Positions 4,581-28,006 of a stretch of 28,006 nt of DNA are shown piece after piece. Every line of letters starts with the position of its first letter. Positions within the stretch are counted from its first letter, which is position 1. Source of the stretch: a virus. Position numbers and translations under genes: made by a program. Location: IMG/VR virus record IMGVR_UViG_3300030450_002179, positions 1-28,006 of that record. The stretch is one strand, 5' to 3'. Below the pieces are notes generated by a model that worked only from the letters and a program-made list of their open reading frames with translations, was not told where the DNA came from and made no database searches.

Positions 4581-4782
4581 ATCTTTTAACTTCTTTATTA
4601 TACAATTTACTTACATAGTTTAAATGTCTCATAGTAGTCTGGCTTGGTTTATCATATTCAGTATGCTCCCACCAATACAATTCTTCTATATAATTATTAT
4701 GTATTATAGCTACTTTTGTAGTATAGCTCCACACCTCATTTTCAAATAAGATATGTAGATTGGGTTTAAGTTTTTCCATCAT
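4567..4782 (-). CDS. Hypothetical early protein
   Basis: A 71-aa aromatic-rich protein (many Trp and Tyr, for example E-E-L-Y-W-W-E-H). No family recognised. The pattern suggests a small beta sheet followed by a helix (R-H-L-N-Y-V-S-K-L-Y-N-K-E-V). Two adjacent Met codons open it, so either could be the true start. It follows a 60-base AT-rich gap and overlaps the next gene by 14 bases. Confidence 0.52.
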   Translation of the reverse strand: MMEKLKPNLHILFENEVWSYTTKVAIIHNNYIEELYWWEHTEYDKPSQTTMRHLNYVSKLYNKEVKRYEAN

Positions 4783-21479: not shown

Positions 21480-22651
21480 TATCTATAGTTAATCCATTCC
21501 ATAAGTGGAAAGATATTAGTTCCAAAATCAGTTGGAGAATATATAAATTCTTGCATATAAAAATTTGAAAAAGCACCACCAATTTCTCCACCAATTTGTA
21601 AGTCCTTACCATCTAATGTAAATGTGTAAGCTACATAATTTAACGAATTAGCATCTAATCCATAATACATAGTACATAGACTATTATTAAATATCAATCC
21701 TATAGTAAGTGGTTCTTTTCTTTTTAATTCGCTATTATTGGGACATACTGGAAAATTAGAGTTTTTAGATATTGCTGGACTAGCGTTTTGATTAGTTAAT
21801 TTTAATGTGCTTTTGACATTGTCTATATTTAAATATAAATGAGTAGTCCCACCTACGCTTAATAATCTATTATCTCCACCACCACTTATGTAAGATGCCC
21901 CAAAATCTTTTATTCTCATAATTATAGAATGAGTTTCGCCCGACAAAGTCATATCTAATCCAATAGCATTACCATAACTAAAGTGTATAGCGTTTTTAAC
22001 TGCGTCCCAACTGGGTCCAGTAGTCATTTTACTAAGTTGATATAAAGGAACTTTTGGCTTACTATATATTGGCAAATAAGCTGTTATCTCGTTGCTTGAC
22101 AATATAATAGAACTATGTATGCTCTCTCTACTCCACCAAGATAAATCTATATCTACTGGTAAAGTAAAGTCTAAGGCATTTTGCTGTTCTGCTAAATAGT
22201 ATGGTATATTACATTGAGTTACTTCGTTTGGAGTTTCTATGCTAAATTGAGTACTCCAACCAGAACATATATCTGGCTTAGTATCTATAAATGGATTAGC
22301 AGAAATAGGTACTTGTAAATTTATTAGAGTATCTTCATTAATAAAATATTTTCCTTTAGTTAATTCTTTACAGAAATCTTGCAGTAGTAATAATGAATCA
22401 GATAAGCATACAGCTTCATTTTCCATTTTATTGTTTTCTCCATCGTACCTATCAAACACAACCACTTCAAAACCATAAGTAACTATTTGGTCATCTATTG
22501 TAGTGCTGGTTGGTGTTAGATGGACAGCTGGATATTCAGTAAATTTATCTTCATCCATTAAACTTATTTCTCCATAAGAAAAAGAATTAATTTGGCTGTG
22601 CTGGTCGCATATAGCATCAAAATATTTTATAATAGCATTGTATGTAATCAT
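21479..22651 (-). CDS. Tail terminator-like protein fused to a LamG/ConA-like domain
   Basis: A 390-aa protein of two parts. Residues 1 to about 145 (M-I-T-Y-N-A-I-I-K-Y-F at the start, then E-Y-P-A-V-H-L-T-P, Y-G-F-E-V-V-V-F-D) match the Bacteroidota siphovirus tail terminator family. Residues about 165-390 are a beta-sandwich-like domain with A-I-H-F-S-Y-G, I-I-M-R-I-K and M-Q-E-F-I-Y motifs and the ending M-E-W-I-N-Y-R, resembling LamG/ConA lectins. The usual protein ends after the first part, so this is a domain fusion. A lectin at the neck could form surface fibres or whiskers. The ATG overlaps the preceding stop as ATGA. Confidence 0.62.
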   Translation of the reverse strand: MITYNAIIKYFDAICDQHSQINSFSYGEISLMDEDKFTEYPAVHLTPTSTTIDDQIVTYGFEVVVFDRYDGENNKMENEAVCLSDSLLLLQDFCKELTKGKYFINEDTLINLQVPISANPFIDTKPDICSGWSTQFSIETPNEVTQCNIPYYLAEQQNALDFTLPVDIDLSWWSRESIHSSIILSSNEITAYLPIYSKPKVPLYQLSKMTTGPSWDAVKNAIHFSYGNAIGLDMTLSGETHSIIMRIKDFGASYISGGGDNRLLSVGGTTHLYLNIDNVKSTLKLTNQNASPAISKNSNFPVCPNNSELKRKEPLTIGLIFNNSLCTMYYGLDANSLNYVAYTFTLDGKDLQIGGEIGGAFSNFYMQEFIYSPTDFGTNIFPLMEWINYR

Positions 22652-22905
22652 CTCATTCTAGCTTTACTTTCTAATTGTCTTTTTCTATTTTCTTTTTGCT
22701 TTTCTATAGCTCTGTCTGCATCAAGAGAAAGCTTCATTAAACACAAATTAAGTTCTAATTGTATAACTTTATCTATATCCAGAACATTTCCATTGGCTAA
22801 TACATCTAAGATATTGAACCAGCCATATTCTGATGAACTTGTTTTTTTTCCTTTTTGGTTAAATAAGCTTGGGAACCTATCAGTAATTTCCCCCCTAAAT
22901 TCCAA
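22648..22905 (-). CDS. Frameshifted second part of the tail assembly chaperone
   Basis: An 85-aa frame in the -1 register of the gene at 23408-22806, overlapping it by about 100 bases. The open frame begins at 22923 after a TAA and has no ATG near its beginning; only a TTG at 22905 is available, so independent initiation is unlikely. Its content (S-E-Y-G-W-F-N-I-L-D-V-L-A-N-G, then a Leu/Lys-rich helix) is typical of the second half of the G/GT tail chaperone in Bacteroidota phages. The likely product is a 253-aa fusion made by -1 frameshifting. It would guide tape measure and tube assembly. Confidence 0.7.
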   Translation of the reverse strand: MEFRGEITDRFPSLFNQKGKKTSSSEYGWFNILDVLANGNVLDIDKVIQLELNLCLMKLSLDADRAIEKQKENRKRQLESKARMR

Positions 22906-23408
22906 AAAAAAACACTTACAGCATTAGCTATATTAATAGATAATTTTTCAAACTTTTTATAATTTTCTCCATGTGTAGCAAAAGAATATGGCTCTATAGA
23001 ATATCTATTGCCTTGTTCTTTTACTATTGGTCTATATAATACTCCCAGCATTTTAGCCATGTTTCCATTTTTAGCATGGGTATCTATATCAACAAATTCT
23101 CCCATAGTCATTTCATCTATAGAGGGATGGAAACCATATTTAACACCATCTATATCTATTTTTTCTATTAATTTAGTATTTAGAGGGCAAGTCATTAATT
23201 TGCTTAAAGATTCTTGTATTTTTTCTAAATCTTTAATTTTAATGTGTTTTATAATATTACCCTTAATTCCACAGAAATGTAATAATAATTTAGCCATGTT
23301 CTGTTCTGGAGTGTCTGTATCTGAAACAGATTCAGTATAACCAAGATATTGACTAATAGATACTTCTCTCCAATCGGTTGGAACTGATATAGTTATTTGA
23401 GTGTTCAT
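22806..23408 (-). CDS. Tail assembly chaperone, first part
   Basis: A 200-aa helical protein. The motif M-T-M-G-E-F-V-D-I-D near 120-129 and M-A-K-M-L-G-V-L-Y-R-P-I near 137-148 are ones I know from tail-assembly-chaperone genes in Bacteroidota phages. It ends in a region rich in homopolymers where the -1 register stays open into the downstream frame. Like lambda G, it would be made alone (200 aa) and as a longer fusion. Unusually it lies between a Cys-rich gene and the tail terminator, not next to the tape measure gene, which is 8 kb downstream. Confidence 0.65.
   Translation of the reverse strand: MNTQITISVPTDWREVSISQYLGYTESVSDTDTPEQNMAKLLLHFCGIKGNIIKHIKIKDLEKIQESLSKLMTCPLNTKLIEKIDIDGVKYGFHPSIDEMTMGEFVDIDTHAKNGNMAKMLGVLYRPIVKEQGNRYSIEPYSFATHGENYKKFEKLSINIANAVSVFFWNLGGKLLIGSQAYLTKKEKKQVHQNMAGSIS
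22842..22848 (-). promoter_or_regulatory. Slippery heptamer A AAA AAA, candidate -1 frameshift site
   Basis: In the frame of the gene at 23408-22806, the minus strand reads GAA AAA AAA CAA with the heptamer A AAA AAA exactly in X XXY YYZ register. The -1 frame continues into the second chaperone part. A shift here joins 189 residues of the first frame to 64 of the second. Confidence 0.55.
22905..22911 (-). promoter_or_regulatory. Second slippery heptamer T TTT TTT
   Basis: In the same frame the minus strand reads GTT TTT TTT TGG, and T TTT TTT is in the X XXY YYZ register inside the shared open region. It is a competing candidate for the -1 shift; a shift here would also yield a 253-aa product (168 + 85 residues). 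Either or both sites could act. A G6 run at 22895-22890 is in a poorer register. Confidence 0.42.
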
Positions 23409-23448
23409 TATATAAATTTAAAGTTTAATTTTAAAAAGTTCGCTTTCG

Positions 23449-23853
23449 CTATTTTTCGTATTCTTCTACTATACGCTTTATTTCATCTAAACTTCCTTTA
23501 AGGCAAGGTACACAATTTGTAGCTTTTTTAGTGCCACCAGCATATTTTTCTAACATTGAGTACATTATGTTTTTCTGTTCTGGGTTAATTGAACCACTTA
23601 CATCATCTAATAGTTGTTTCATTTCTTTATAATCTGATTCAGACACTTGATATTCTTCCCACAAACCTAATGGACAAGAACTAAAAGCTAATTTAGTTTT
23701 AGCGTCCATAAAACAACCACAAGTCCTTTTATTTCCAACTTTATATCCAACTATAGGAGTACCACATGTCCTAGCTCTATGATTAAAATGCTCACATTTT
23801 AAGCAGATATTAATTCTTTTTTCTGCTAAATCTTTAGTACTCAGTAGGTTCAT
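23449..23853 (-). CDS. Cys-rich zinc-binding phage protein
   Basis: A 134-aa protein. The pattern R-I-N-I-C17-x2-C20-x-H22-x2-H25-x4-C30, then C45-G-C47 and C60-P-L-G-x-W, is a family I know in Bacteroidota phages, where it often lies after terminase or near tail genes. It looks like a zinc-binding module. A second C114-x2-C117 pair is close to the C-terminus. It overlaps the sigma-like gene by 20 bases. Whether it is a virion or a regulatory protein is unknown. Confidence 0.65.
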   Translation of the reverse strand: MNLLSTKDLAEKRINICLKCEHFNHRARTCGTPIVGYKVGNKRTCGCFMDAKTKLAFSSCPLGLWEEYQVSESDYKEMKQLLDDVSGSINPEQKNIMYSMLEKYAGGTKKATNCVPCLKGSLDEIKRIVEEYEK

Positions 23854-24391
23854 GAATCATTTTTTTAATTTTTTCTCTAACACTTGTAATAGTATTTCTT
23901 AATGACCTTTGGCTTATACCAGTTTCTTCTTCTAATTTTCTAAATGAAAGTCCAGTCTCATAATATATTTTAAATACATCTCGGTCATATTCATCAAATT
24001 CTTCCAAACATTTATCTATCTTACTTTCCATTAATTGTATTCCATCTTCATATTCTAATTGCTCGTTAATTTTTTTTTCTATGAAGCTATTGTTATTGGT
24101 TGGTCTAACTTTATTGTTATTATACCTAACATATTTTTTATGAAATTGAGATTTTTTAGAGAAATATTTAACCATCATTATTTTGCAAATGTAGGTCTTA
24201 ATTCTACCACCATCTAATATAATTAATAGCTTGTGGTGGTTCATGGTTAGTAATTGCAAGAAAACTTCTTGTACTAAGTCTTCAGATAAAAATTTATCTT
24301 TAGTCTTTTTAATAGCAAAGCCTAAATAATAATCATAGTCTTTATAGACATATTCTATTGGGTGGTATTTTTTAAAAGGCGTATTCCCCAT
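23834..24391 (-). CDS. Sigma-70-like (ECF-type) transcription factor
   Basis: A 185-aa protein with the two-domain layout of group 4 sigma factors. Residues 13-90 form region 2, with D-K-F-L-S-E-D-L-V-Q-E-V-F-L at 32-45 matching the classic D-L-x-Q-E-x-F helix. Residues about 122-177 form region 4, with Y-D-R-D-V-F-K-I-Y-Y-E-T-G-L-S-F and E-E-T-G-I-S-Q-R-S-L as the HTH. The linker is basic and Asn-rich. It probably directs host RNA polymerase to late promoters or, alternatively, works as an HTH regulator. The gene overlaps the terminase gene before it and the Cys-rich gene after it by 20 bases each. Confidence 0.78.
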   Translation of the reverse strand: MGNTPFKKYHPIEYVYKDYDYYLGFAIKKTKDKFLSEDLVQEVFLQLLTMNHHKLLIILDGGRIKTYICKIMMVKYFSKKSQFHKKYVRYNNNKVRPTNNNSFIEKKINEQLEYEDGIQLMESKIDKCLEEFDEYDRDVFKIYYETGLSFRKLEEETGISQRSLRNTITSVREKIKKMIHEPTEY

Positions 24392-25688
24392 AATTACTTT
24401 TAATTTCGTACCACATGCGCATCATAATAGCATCAGCAAAGTCTGGCGAATGACCAAGCTTTACTTTTTGTATATCTTTACCCTCTATAGCTAATTTTTG
24501 GCTATCTTTATCTACTTTATCTCTCTTTATTATTTCCAATTCGCTTATTATGTTTTCTCTATATTTAGAATCAGCTATATATAATTTACCAGTATTTACT
24601 ATTTCAGCTAATTTATAATAGCATTGAGTCTTTAAATTTTGGTAATTTTCATTTTTTAAAGCCTTGCTTCCATTAGCAAAACCTACAGAACCACTTATAT
24701 AATCTTTTGCTCCACCACCTACTCCATCTTGGTCTATTACTACTTTTGAATTTGGTATGCTGTGTTTAAGACATAATTCTTCAATTTCTTCTACTACTTG
24801 TTTTACGCTACTTTTATCAAATTTTATAATTCTTTCTAATCTCAATCCATTCCATAGACAAATAATAGTTTTATCATTACCAAATCTGGCTACATCACAA
24901 GTAATAATTTTATTTCCTTGTTCTACATAATTATTAGAAAACATATCTTGTAGAGAAGTATAATCAAATAACAAAGCAGAATCTTCGTTATATTCCCAAT
25001 TACCAAATAAGAGCCTTTCTTTACTTAACTTATCTAATTTGCCTAACTGGTCTATATAATGCTTTGAAATAGCCTTATTATCGGTTACAAGTGATTTTAT
25101 AAACTTTCTATGAGGTGGTAAGCTATTGGATAGAGCTGGTTTGTAGAATTGAGAATATAACCAACCTTTTGATGGATTGCAAGTTAATAAAGTTTTTGGA
25201 ATTAAACCAAATTCATCTAATTTATATCTTATACGAGAATTAAGAATATTAACTGCTTTTTCAGAAACTTCAGCACTTTCATCTATAAAGCAATCTGTAA
25301 TTTCTAAACCACCCAAGCTGGTAAATTCTGAGTCTGATGGGTAAAGAAAAAGGTCTTTTAAGTATATTTCTGAACCATTATAAAATTTTATGGTACTATC
25401 AGAAGCATTGAACACATAATCTCTATTTGGAGATAGACCACAATAATTATTAGCTACTTCCCAAAATGTGTTTAATGTGGTGGCTTTTAGGTTTTTAAGT
25501 TTGCTTCTTCCTATTACGCTTCTAGTACCAGCGTATTTAAGTCTGCGAGATATTTGCCACAAACAACCAGTAAATGTTTTAGCACCCCCAGCTCCCCCAC
25601 CAAACAAAACCTCGCTAGTAGAATTATCTTCAAGGTATTTAAAGCACTCAATCTGCTTGGGGAATAATGATACTTTCTGCTTCTTCAA
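24372..25688 (-). CDS. terL: Terminase large subunit
   Basis: A 438-aa packaging motor. ATPase: Walker A G-G-G-A-G-G-A-K-T at 30-38, Walker B C-F-I-D-E at 133-137, and the coupling motif L-L-T-C-N-P-S at 167-173. Nuclease: C-D265-V-A-R-F-G at 264-270, V-V-I-D319-Q-D at 316-321 and S-P-D416-F-A-D419-A at 414-420, the three acidic motifs of the RNase H-like fold. Length is normal. It overlaps the small subunit by 41 bases, so synthesis is coupled. It cuts and pumps DNA into proheads; the packaging strategy (cos, pac or terminal repeat) cannot be told from this sequence alone. Confidence 0.95.
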   Translation of the reverse strand: MKKQKVSLFPKQIECFKYLEDNSTSEVLFGGGAGGAKTFTGCLWQISRRLKYAGTRSVIGRSKLKNLKATTLNTFWEVANNYCGLSPNRDYVFNASDSTIKFYNGSEIYLKDLFLYPSDSEFTSLGGLEITDCFIDESAEVSEKAVNILNSRIRYKLDEFGLIPKTLLTCNPSKGWLYSQFYKPALSNSLPPHRKFIKSLVTDNKAISKHYIDQLGKLDKLSKERLLFGNWEYNEDSALLFDYTSLQDMFSNNYVEQGNKIITCDVARFGNDKTIICLWNGLRLERIIKFDKSSVKQVVEEIEELCLKHSIPNSKVVIDQDGVGGGAKDYISGSVGFANGSKALKNENYQNLKTQCYYKLAEIVNTGKLYIADSKYRENIISELEIIKRDKVDKDSQKLAIEGKDIQKVKLGHSPDFADAIMMRMWYEIKSNYGEYAF

Positions 25689-26028
25689 AAGGTGCTATTT
25701 CTATTTTAATTCTATCGTCTCCAGAAACATCAAGCTCACTTCTTTCAATATAACCTCTTTTTTTACCTTTTGTTTTAAGATAAAATATAGTAGCCGATGT
25801 ATTGCCACTTCCAATTTGTTCATGGAGTTTACTTTCAGCAAAGTCTAATGCTATGTTCTGTATATCATCAACAGCCAGAGAAAATTTAGCATCATCTTTT
25901 AACCATTGATAATATTGAGTTCTTCCAATGCCTACTTTTTTACAAGCTGTGGTTACTATTCCTAAAGACTTCTCCAAAGCATCTAACATTGCTTTTTTAT
26001 GCTGTTCGGTTTTGTTCATTTTTGCCAT
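25648..26028 (-). CDS. terS: Terminase small subunit
   Basis: A 126-aa protein with an N-terminal homeodomain-like HTH (G-I-V-T-T-A-C-K-K-V-G-I-G-R-T-Q-Y-Y-Q-W-L near 23-43), a helical middle (L-D-F-A-E-S-K-L-H-E-Q-I) and a short beta end, as in phage small terminases that recognise the packaging site and form a ring. It overlaps the large subunit gene by 41 bases and starts two bases after the GNAT gene. The C-terminal acidic patch (E-I-A-P-F-E-E-A-E) may contact the large subunit. Confidence 0.88.
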   Translation of the reverse strand: MAKMNKTEQHKKAMLDALEKSLGIVTTACKKVGIGRTQYYQWLKDDAKFSLAVDDIQNIALDFAESKLHEQIGSGNTSATIFYLKTKGKKRGYIERSELDVSGDDRIKIEIAPFEEAESIIIPQAD

Positions 26029-26029
26029 A

Positions 26030-26410
26030 TTAATATATTAATTTAGCTGAAGTTCCATTTTTAGTATTTATTACTTTTGCTCCAAGATTTTTATGTAATC
26101 CTACAGACAAAATATCCCAATTAGCTTCTATTTTTTTATATCCCATTCCTTTTAATATCATTAAACGAGTAAGAGTTAATTCTGTGCCTAAACCTTTTTT
26201 TCTATGTTGTGGTTCAATATATAATCCATTCATTTTGGCTTTGTTTTTATATAGCTTAAAATTAGCAAAACCTATTACTTTATTATCGTCCAGCATACAA
26301 ATTAGCTTTGTAGTAGATTTATATATCTTAACTCCCTCTTTTGATGCTGATTCTTTTAAATGGTCTACAGCATATACTGGCAAAGTTTTTATATTATACA
26401 TTAAATTCAA
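26030..26410 (-). CDS. Stand-alone GNAT acetyltransferase
   Basis: A 126-aa GNAT-fold protein. Motif A is complete: L-Y-I-E-P-Q-H-R-K-K-G-L-G-T-E-L at 63-78, with R70-x2-G-x-G binding the acyl-CoA phosphates. Motif B follows at about 98-112 (W-D-I-L-S-V-G-L-H-K-N-L-G-A). It is compact but a full GNAT core. It overlaps the ABC/Mom-like fusion by 17 bases and precedes terS by two, so it belongs to the same cassette. It may acylate the modified base precursor or a protein partner; its substrate is unknown. Confidence 0.85.
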   Translation of the reverse strand: MNLMYNIKTLPVYAVDHLKESASKEGVKIYKSTTKLICMLDDNKVIGFANFKLYKNKAKMNGLYIEPQHRKKGLGTELTLTRLMILKGMGYKKIEANWDILSVGLHKNLGAKVINTKNGTSAKLIY

Positions 26411-27503
26411 AATTATAAGTCTTTACTCCTTTCTCTCTAAAACCTTTTGTTCTAATGCGACCAGCTATCATAATGCCCATTTTTCTTTTAAAACCAAGAT
26501 ATTTCCATTGTTCTTGCTTAATCATAGCTTTATAAACTGGTACGCTACTAAATTTAGCCATAATTCTACATTTAATTTTTTTTGATAGTAAAGTGCTTGT
26601 TTCATTTATTAGCTTAATTCCTAATCCTAATCCATTGTAATCTGGGTGGACTACAGTTCTATTAGAATGATAAATAATTGTAGTATTTTTTCTGTGTGGC
26701 ACATAATTAGCAAAACATTGAAAGCCTATCTGGTTATTATTGTGAAACAATCCATATAAATATATTTTTCCAGCTGGTAAGTTTTCATTTAGATAATGAT
26801 ATTTGCTAAAATATTTCCAGCTTGTTCTGTCGATTTCTCGGACATCAAATTTGAGCTTTGCTCGTTCTTTAAAAAAAAAAGTTTCCGATAGAGGAAGTAT
26901 AAATTGCTGTTTATTACAATCAATAAGCCAATCTGGAATAAGCCACTCTATTATATCAAAATGACAAGAACAGACCACCACTTTTTTATTAGTTCTTTTT
27001 GCATATTTTTTTAAACATAAGCTCATGGCTTTGGCTACAGTCCTATCTACTACAGATGTCCATTCATCTATAAATACTATTTTGTCTGATTTAGTCATAA
27101 GGTAAACAGCTTCTGCTCTCGCCTTTTGACCATTTGACAAAGTTTTAAGAGGTCTTATCCAACATGGAACACTATTTAAACCAATACCATTAAGCAATTT
27201 AGCACATTCTTCATAGCTTAAATCTTTTGGTAATTGGTTTATTATTGGTTCTTCTTCATTCAATTCTACATCAAAAATATTTTCTCCAAATAAGTGTTTT
27301 ATCATTGTGGTCTTTCCACTACCACTATTACCATAGACTAAACCAACATTCCATTTTTCTGGAATATCAATATTATCTATTTTTAAATTATGAATAGATT
27401 TTTTTTCTACATCAATATCTAAAGAATTAGCAGCTACTTGACACCTAAATTCTTTATTAACTTCAGATTTAAGCGTTACATTTATGCTATTTGGAATTAT
27501 CAT
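26394..27503 (-). CDS. ABC ATPase fused to Mom-like GNAT acyltransferase
   Basis: A 369-aa two-domain protein. Residues about 40-205 are a complete ABC-type ATPase: Walker A G-N-S-G-S-G-K-T-T at 58-66, signature L-S-N-G-Q at 122-126, Walker B with D146-E147, D-loop S-V-V-D at 150-153 and H-loop H181. It has no membrane partner. Residues about 220-350 are GNAT-like with Y-H-Y-L-N-E-N-L-P-A-G-K at 235-246, a motif that from memory resembles the phage Mu Mom DNA-modification family (H-Y-S-x-x-L-P-x-G-K), and T-V-V-H-P-D-Y-N-G-L-G-L-G at 283-295. It overlaps the ParB-like gene by 4 bases and the small GNAT by 17. A DNA-base modification role is inference. Confidence 0.82.
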   Translation of the reverse strand: MIIPNSINVTLKSEVNKEFRCQVAANSLDIDVEKKSIHNLKIDNIDIPEKWNVGLVYGNSGSGKTTMIKHLFGENIFDVELNEEEPIINQLPKDLSYEECAKLLNGIGLNSVPCWIRPLKTLSNGQKARAEAVYLMTKSDKIVFIDEWTSVVDRTVAKAMSLCLKKYAKRTNKKVVVCSCHFDIIEWLIPDWLIDCNKQQFILPLSETFFFKERAKLKFDVREIDRTSWKYFSKYHYLNENLPAGKIYLYGLFHNNNQIGFQCFANYVPHRKNTTIIYHSNRTVVHPDYNGLGLGIKLINETSTLLSKKIKCRIMAKFSSVPVYKAMIKQEQWKYLGFKRKMGIMIAGRIRTKGFREKGVKTYNFEFNV

Positions 27504-28006
27504 TGTACTATCTTTATATTAAGATTCTCAATTAATAATTTTTCATACCACTTTTGAGCATCTGTTTCTTCATTAAATTCAATATGTAAAAACCAAAGCT
27601 CATCTTCTAAAGAATAATTTTTTTCTGATTCTTTTTGAGCTTCTTCATCTAATGTTTGCCACACATCTAATCCCCATTCTTCTATTTGTTTATTATCCCA
27701 ATCATTAGCAAGAATATCCCAGTCCCACTCTCCAAAACCAACATTATCTTTAACTATAAATTCTTTTTTTTGAGCTTCAGACAATCCCTCTGCCACTTTA
27801 ACTGGCACTTCTTTTAATCCAGCTTCAATACAAGCTTTATATCTCATATTACCACCCAAAATAACATTTTCTTCATCTATAACTATTGGACGAAGCTCTA
27901 ACATTTCTGGAAAGTCTATAATAGACTGGACTAATTTTGCAAACTTATTATCCCTTATTACTCTTGGATTGTTTTTGTTTGGCTTTAGTATCTTGATTTT
28001 TAATTT
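27500..28006 (-). CDS. ParB/Srx-like protein (continues from 149)
   Basis: The frame is open to 28006 and joins the start at 149 across the circle to give a 170-aa protein. It carries the ParB box G-G-N-M-R-Y-K-A-C near 53-61, then E-V-P-V, and the D-N-V-G-F-G-E-W-D-W-D-I-L-A segment near 93-106 typical of phage ParB-like proteins next to DNA-modifying enzymes. An acidic C-terminal part (about 125-170) follows. It is not a partition protein: no ParA, no HTH and no parS cluster are seen. It overlaps the ABC/Mom-like gene by 4 bases and probably acts with it as a DNA-binding or nucleotide-handling subunit. The internal ATG at 27904 is not the start. Confidence 0.85.
   Translation of the reverse strand, partial: KLKIKILKPNKNNPRVIRDNKFAKLVQSIIDFPEMLELRPIVIDEENVILGGNMRYKACIEAGLKEVPVKVAEGLSEAQKKEFIVKDNVGFGEWDWDILANDWDNKQIEEWGLDVWQTLDEEAQKESEKNYSLEDELWFLHIEFNEETDAQKWYEKLLIENLNIKIVQ
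27864..28006. repeat. Terminal direct repeat, right copy
   Basis: Second copy of the 143-base repeat at 1-143, with one mismatch (27929 versus 66). Joining 28006 to 144 restores the ParB-like frame without a break, which supports circular closure. Confidence 0.95.

Follow-up and report, generated by a model that had tools for sequence, protein, structure and literature searches.

A ParB-like protein and an ABC ATPase-GNAT fusion as a predicted DNA-base modification module of phages

A ParB-like protein and a protein that joins an ABC ATPase with a GNAT domain (hereafter ABC-GNAT), encoded by two overlapping genes of a virus, probably form a single two-gene module that modifies bases in phage DNA. 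The DNA-modifying role of such fusions is a published prediction, to which the window (i.e., the whole stretch of 28,006 bases analysed here, an IMG/VR virus record) supplies one further family member. The exchange of partners behind a shared ParB adds what we consider new evidence for this predicted role. Judging from trees and profiles, ABC-GNAT and the phage enzyme Mom have been swapped repeatedly behind ParB, while the C-terminal tails of ParB sort almost perfectly according to the partner.

All the genes of the cassette, as well as those of the terminase, are located on the minus strand. In gene order, they are the following: (i) a ParB/Srx-like gene (27500-28006) coding for at least 168 amino acids, whose 5' end is open at the contig end, the N-terminus of the protein being missing; (ii) the ABC-GNAT gene (26394-27503; 369 amino acids); (iii) a stand-alone small GNAT (26030-26410; 126 amino acids; PF00583, E=4e-10); (iv) TerS, the terminase small subunit (25648-26028; phrog_309, E=2e-8); and (v) TerL, the terminase large subunit (24372-25688; PF04466, E=1.5e-8; phrog_979, E=1.5e-28). 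The ABC-GNAT gene overlaps the ParB gene by 4 nt and is itself overlapped by the stand-alone GNAT, by 17 nt from a TTG start or by 8 nt from an in-frame ATG; TerS and then TerL follow directly. The three overlapping genes ahead of the terminase, as described in the initial annotation, were all recovered as open reading frames, and Pfam and PHROGs match each of them. Just after TerL there is a gene for a sigma-70-like factor (23834-24391, minus strand; phrog_1740, E=2e-12), possibly a late-gene regulator. A megablast search with positions 22000-28006 found no close DNA relatives among GenBank phages.

The ABC ATPase domain of the fusion (residues 1-205; 26889-27503, minus strand) has all its motifs intact: Walker A GNSGSGKT58, signature LSNGQ122, Walker B VFIDE143, D-loop SVVDR150 and H-loop SCH179, the corresponding columns being invariant across 103 divergent family sequences. 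The fusion scores above the Pfam cut-off for ABC_tran, its residues 1-213 align with ABC ATPases at a Z of about 14.5 (VIA-align), and its best 60 PDB sequence matches listed are ABC ATPases, mostly transporters. In the GNAT domain (residues 206-369; 26394-26888, minus strand), which is matched by Acetyltransf_7 (Pfam, E=3e-4), HYL (residues 236-238) stands on the acceptor side and motif A (residues 282-295; RTVVHPDYNGLGLG from residue 282) on the CoA side, the CoA-side motif being RTVVHPDYNGLGLG. The CoA-binding motif (Q/R-x-x-G-x-G/A) is present, with a family consensus of QGxGxG and, in the window, NGLGLG with Asn in first place; Tyr237, Arg282, Pro287 and Gly291 are invariant in the 103 divergent sequences. 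The H-Y-L-x3-L-P-A-G-K motif previously noticed was found in this domain; HYL is conserved family-wide and LPAGK is confined to near relatives. The AlphaFold2 model of the whole fusion reaches a mean pLDDT of 90.8 and a pTM of 0.85 (mean pLDDT of 87.7 for the GNAT domain modelled alone), and the GNAT fold is confirmed by a Z of 15.0 to 1y9k over 138 residues and of 14.3 to RimI 5isv. That a complete ABC ATPase is fused to a GNAT domain, as first reported, also agrees with the match to PHROG 11143 (E=1.3e-76 over residues 9-342) and with full-length relatives at 24-82% identity. A known defence system was considered and rejected, since the ATPase matches from PADLOC are no more than partial (mad3, E=3e-8); the same program matches the ParB of the window to Type II methylase models.

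The fusion had been regarded as the novel part of the cassette. Actually, it is widespread and was described previously: tblastn finds the PHROG 11143 fusion in 81 GenBank phage records from very different hosts, none of them at 60% identity or above, and profile-based scans find the family in at least 596 viral-contig and at least 450 bacterial or archaeal genome stretches. Moreover, Iyer et al. (2013), according to the authors' later summary (PMC7824862), predicted that a "GNAT coupled with an ABC ATPase" adds an acyl group to a base of DNA. The Tenacibaculum phage pT24 is among the relatives found here; in its record, an in-frame TGA (at about 4616-4618 of our locus L008) splits the ABC-GNAT, which is hence annotated as two genes. 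No biochemical data on ABC-GNAT were found in the literature searched, nor is COG2401, in which an ABC ATPase is joined to an acetyltransferase, mentioned in it. Neither "modification" nor "methyl" appears in the text of the paper on phages LE3 and LE4. When the same three genes were searched for in other phages, the ParB/ABC-GNAT pair proved to be common, but no counterpart of the stand-alone GNAT was present beside the cassette in 286 loci. This small gene, initially counted as a cassette member, is probably an unrelated passenger, incidental to the cassette.

Despite its missing N-terminus, the ParB of the window exceeds the PF02195 (ParB_N) cut-off of 26.3 bits, with a score of 29.0. In raw counts that include related loci, the collection scans covering the best 80 loci each, the gene directly upstream of ABC-GNAT is a ParB in 66 of the 85 testable viral loci, in 54 of the 77 genome loci and in all 6 Firmicute viral loci. 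As a control, 358 other large ORFs of the viral loci were checked, and only one has a ParB in that position. The overlap between both genes is mostly 4 to 22 nt, and roughly one viral locus in five has no ParB adjoining ABC-GNAT. The same ParB N-domain precedes Mom in 70 of 79 loci, a fraction biased by the seeding of this set from one ParB-linked Mom. In Psychrobacter phage Y8A the order is ParB-Mom-TerS-TerL, and in Pasteurella phage Pmp13 it is ParB-ABC-GNAT, a small opposite-strand gene and TerS-TerL; Mom and ABC-GNAT occupy the equivalent slot before the terminase. A second pair, the Arthrobacter phages BarretLemon and EastWest, likewise has one enzyme replacing the other in a similar gene order.

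When the partner (Mom or ABC-GNAT) is mapped onto a tree of 165 ParB N-domains, built by a quick method from few columns and with some long branches, 30 changes of label are required, and at least nine of them are imposed by branches with strong support. By contrast, the C-terminal tails follow the partner. With profiles trained on half of the data, the ABC-GNAT type recognises 54 of 54 held-out ABC-GNAT-linked tails versus 0 of 58 Mom-linked ones, and the Mom type recognises 27 of 29 Mom-linked tails versus 0 of 107 ABC-GNAT-linked ones. The tail of the window ParB (its C-terminal 45 or so amino acids, LEDELWFLHIEFNEETDAQKWYEKLLIENLNIKIVQ) belongs to the ABC-GNAT type. Since the labels swap along the N-domain tree and the tails match the partner, the simplest reading is that ParB would be an adaptor with a tail fitted to its enzyme. 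A third type of tail, with a zinc-finger-like Cys-x-x-Cys C-terminus (CPSCHYQW and CPNCGHTF), is observed in Mom-linked ParBs of actinophages (loci L036 and L041); the Mom of L041 reads HYSRCLPAGK, close to HYLNENLPAGK in the window.

The 80 closest relatives of the window ParB in viral contigs have 78 readable next or fused genes. These correspond to TET-associated glycosyltransferases (TAGT; 23), N6/N4 DNA methylase fusions (17), ABC-GNAT (7), TET/JBP oxygenases (6), C5-cytosine methylases (5) and Mom (2); further glycosyltransferases, methyltransferases and TGT-like genes also adjoin ParB relatives. That the relatives of this ParB mostly adjoin DNA-modifying enzymes is the strongest argument for DNA as the substrate. 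DpdB, a ParB-like protein, reportedly acts together with DpdA, a TGT, to place a deazaguanine in DNA (PMC12839542). At ten loci (L288, L303, L304, L306, L319, L322, L331, L340, L342 and L361), the genes directly after ParB include those for TET/JBP oxygenases, for glycosyltransferases (TAGT and others), for C5 and FkbM-type methylating enzymes and for TGT-like proteins. In broader terms, the chances are evenly balanced that phage ParB-like proteins are general base-modification adaptors, with swappable tails specific to the class of enzyme, and that ABC-GNAT is an ATP-dependent DNA acyltransferase making an undescribed base.

The GNAT domain was initially called Mom-like, and it could be thought that ABC-GNAT is a true Mom-type enzyme, which makes carbamoylmethyl-adenine as phage Mu Mom does and has the ABC domain as an accessory. 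We consider this improbable. It is true that both enzymes use the same ParB slot and that, in about 10,000 ORFs at E up to 10, the Mom profile matches 69-74 ABC-GNATs versus 9-11 other ORFs. The profile covers the first 60 or so residues of the GNAT domain, the His-Tyr segment included, and its best matches fall on the acceptor-side segment, some alignments pairing His-Tyr with His-Tyr and others being one residue off. Nevertheless, the fusion scores 13.1 bits with Pfam Mom (PF25680), below the cut-off of 27.1, and the hhalign probability between its GNAT domain and Mom is only 29%. Nine aligned Moms share His58-Tyr59, Glu108, Ser124, Ala-Asp148-149, Gly156 and Tyr159; the ABC-GNATs have only the His-Tyr pair (H236/Y237 in the window), and instead of the other residues there is an ordinary GNAT CoA motif. 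The Ser124 mutant of Mom, S124A, is "inactive" according to the title of PDB entry 8bv8. With the profile below the cut-off and the catalytic half absent, membership of the Mom family was rejected. Regarding structure, the comparison of the modelled domain with Mom and other GNATs upheld the GNAT fold and went no further: Mu Mom (8bv8) aligns at a Z of 13.8 over 148 residues and ranks 14th, many GNATs lie within about 1 Z, and the neighbours at Z 13-15 include the protein N-acetyltransferases RimI and NatA. Mom is effectively tied with 1y9k and the RimI-like GNATs, and so the fold decides nothing between them. The domain is best read as a Mom-like acceptor side joined to a canonical CoA side, the resemblance being confined to the acceptor-side half with its His-Tyr pair.

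The main rival, also unlikely, is an acetyltransferase of RNA or of host proteins, for instance a TmcA-like enzyme for tRNA cytidine or an enzyme that, like Rac, modifies the machinery of the host. The ATPase plus GNAT layout of TmcA (2zpa, Foldseek rank 13) is the nearest two-domain structural parallel, GNATs of the RimI and NatA types are among the closest folds, the CoA-binding half is ordinary, and phage GNATs that target RNA polymerase are known (PMC7824862). However, the partner ParB goes with DNA-acting enzymes, and Mom and ABC-GNAT interchange behind it. As for the idea that ParB and the ABC part serve to segregate or package DNA, the GNAT being catalytically silent, the terminase is often close (TerL lies downstream of ABC-GNAT in 37 of 73 testable viral loci), but the invariance of the four GNAT residues in 103 divergent sequences and the predominance of modifying enzymes among the closest ParB neighbours make this explanation very improbable. 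The DNA-base modification originally proposed for the cassette has good support from gene context and agrees with the published prediction (PMC7824862), while Mom identity, the novelty of the fusion and the membership of the stand-alone GNAT have been dropped.

For a ParB/ABC-GNAT module that modifies DNA bases, the following mechanism can be proposed from the domains, the ATPase motifs, the GNAT fold and CoA motif, the gene overlap, the enzyme exchange and the enzyme-specific tails, as they are read from sequence. The N-domain of ParB would bind phage DNA, and its partner-specific C-terminal tail would recruit ABC-GNAT through a putative contact. The ABC part would then use ATP, probably closing as a dimer on DNA, in order to clamp or present the base. 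The GNAT part, whose acceptor side bears the His-Tyr pair, would transfer an acyl group from a presumed acyl-CoA donor to an amino group of the base. Modification might take place late, near packaging, and the modified DNA would presumably be protected from host nucleases.

In the phage relatives from Firmicutes, a -1 change of frame, placed at a T-run, separates the ABC part from the GNAT part at 12 of 12 junctions (L003, L005, L015, L200-L204 and L366-L369; e.g., 6573-6597 in L003), this run being TTTTTTT or GTTTTTC at most of them. In most of the 12, homology in the GNAT frame, HYL included, begins upstream of a usable start codon. These features suggest programmed -1 frameshifting, which would yield both ABC alone and ABC-GNAT. 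A downstream stem, CCCCAC/GTGGGG, has arms that are mostly invariant and coding, so its covariation is uninformative. Unlike the 12 split loci, L205 has an in-frame ABC-GNAT fusion.

The ABC-GNAT family spans phages of many bacterial groups, cultured laboratory phages included; Lactococcus phage P335, Nonlabens phage P12024S, the Leptospira biflexa phages LE3 and LE4 and Pasteurella phage Pmp13 are cultured carriers of the pair or of the enzyme. Should the family prove to acylate DNA, ordinary isolates would contain an entire class of modified phage DNA that has been overlooked. The reuse of the ParB N-domain with enzyme-matched tails may offer a simple search rule for further phage DNA-modification enzymes, and the tails themselves a direct hypothesis for how modifying enzymes may reach DNA.

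Among known systems, the tRNA(Met) cytidine acetyltransferase TmcA (2zpa) resembles ABC-GNAT in the order of its domains, an ATPase and then a GNAT whose target is a nucleic-acid base (a predicted one for ABC-GNAT), but its substrate is RNA, it has no ParB partner and its ATPase is a helicase-type domain, not ABC. The ParB-N6/N4 methylase fusions (phrog_498), TAGTs, TET/JBP oxygenases and DpdA-like TGT have, like ABC-GNAT, a similar ParB-like partner upstream or fused, whereas their chemistry is different and their catalytic folds are unrelated. Mu Mom (8bv8) and the ParB-linked Moms have in common with ABC-GNAT the GNAT fold and the His-Tyr acceptor-side motif, and the ParB-linked Moms, in addition, the neighbouring ParB N-domain and the pre-terminase slot. 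But while Mom has no ABC domain, ABC-GNAT lacks the Ser124 of Mom and its Ser-x-Ala-Asp/Gly-x-x-Tyr half, and the ParB tails beside each enzyme differ in type. Finally, Tenacibaculum phage pT24, Nonlabens phage P12024S (gp24) and the Leptospira phages LE3 and LE4 encode two-domain proteins homologous to that of the window, in LE4 also beside a ParB. Apart from the split genes of Firmicute phages and pT24, sequence divergence is the only difference between the window and the ABC-GNATs predicted to carry out DNA acyl-modification.
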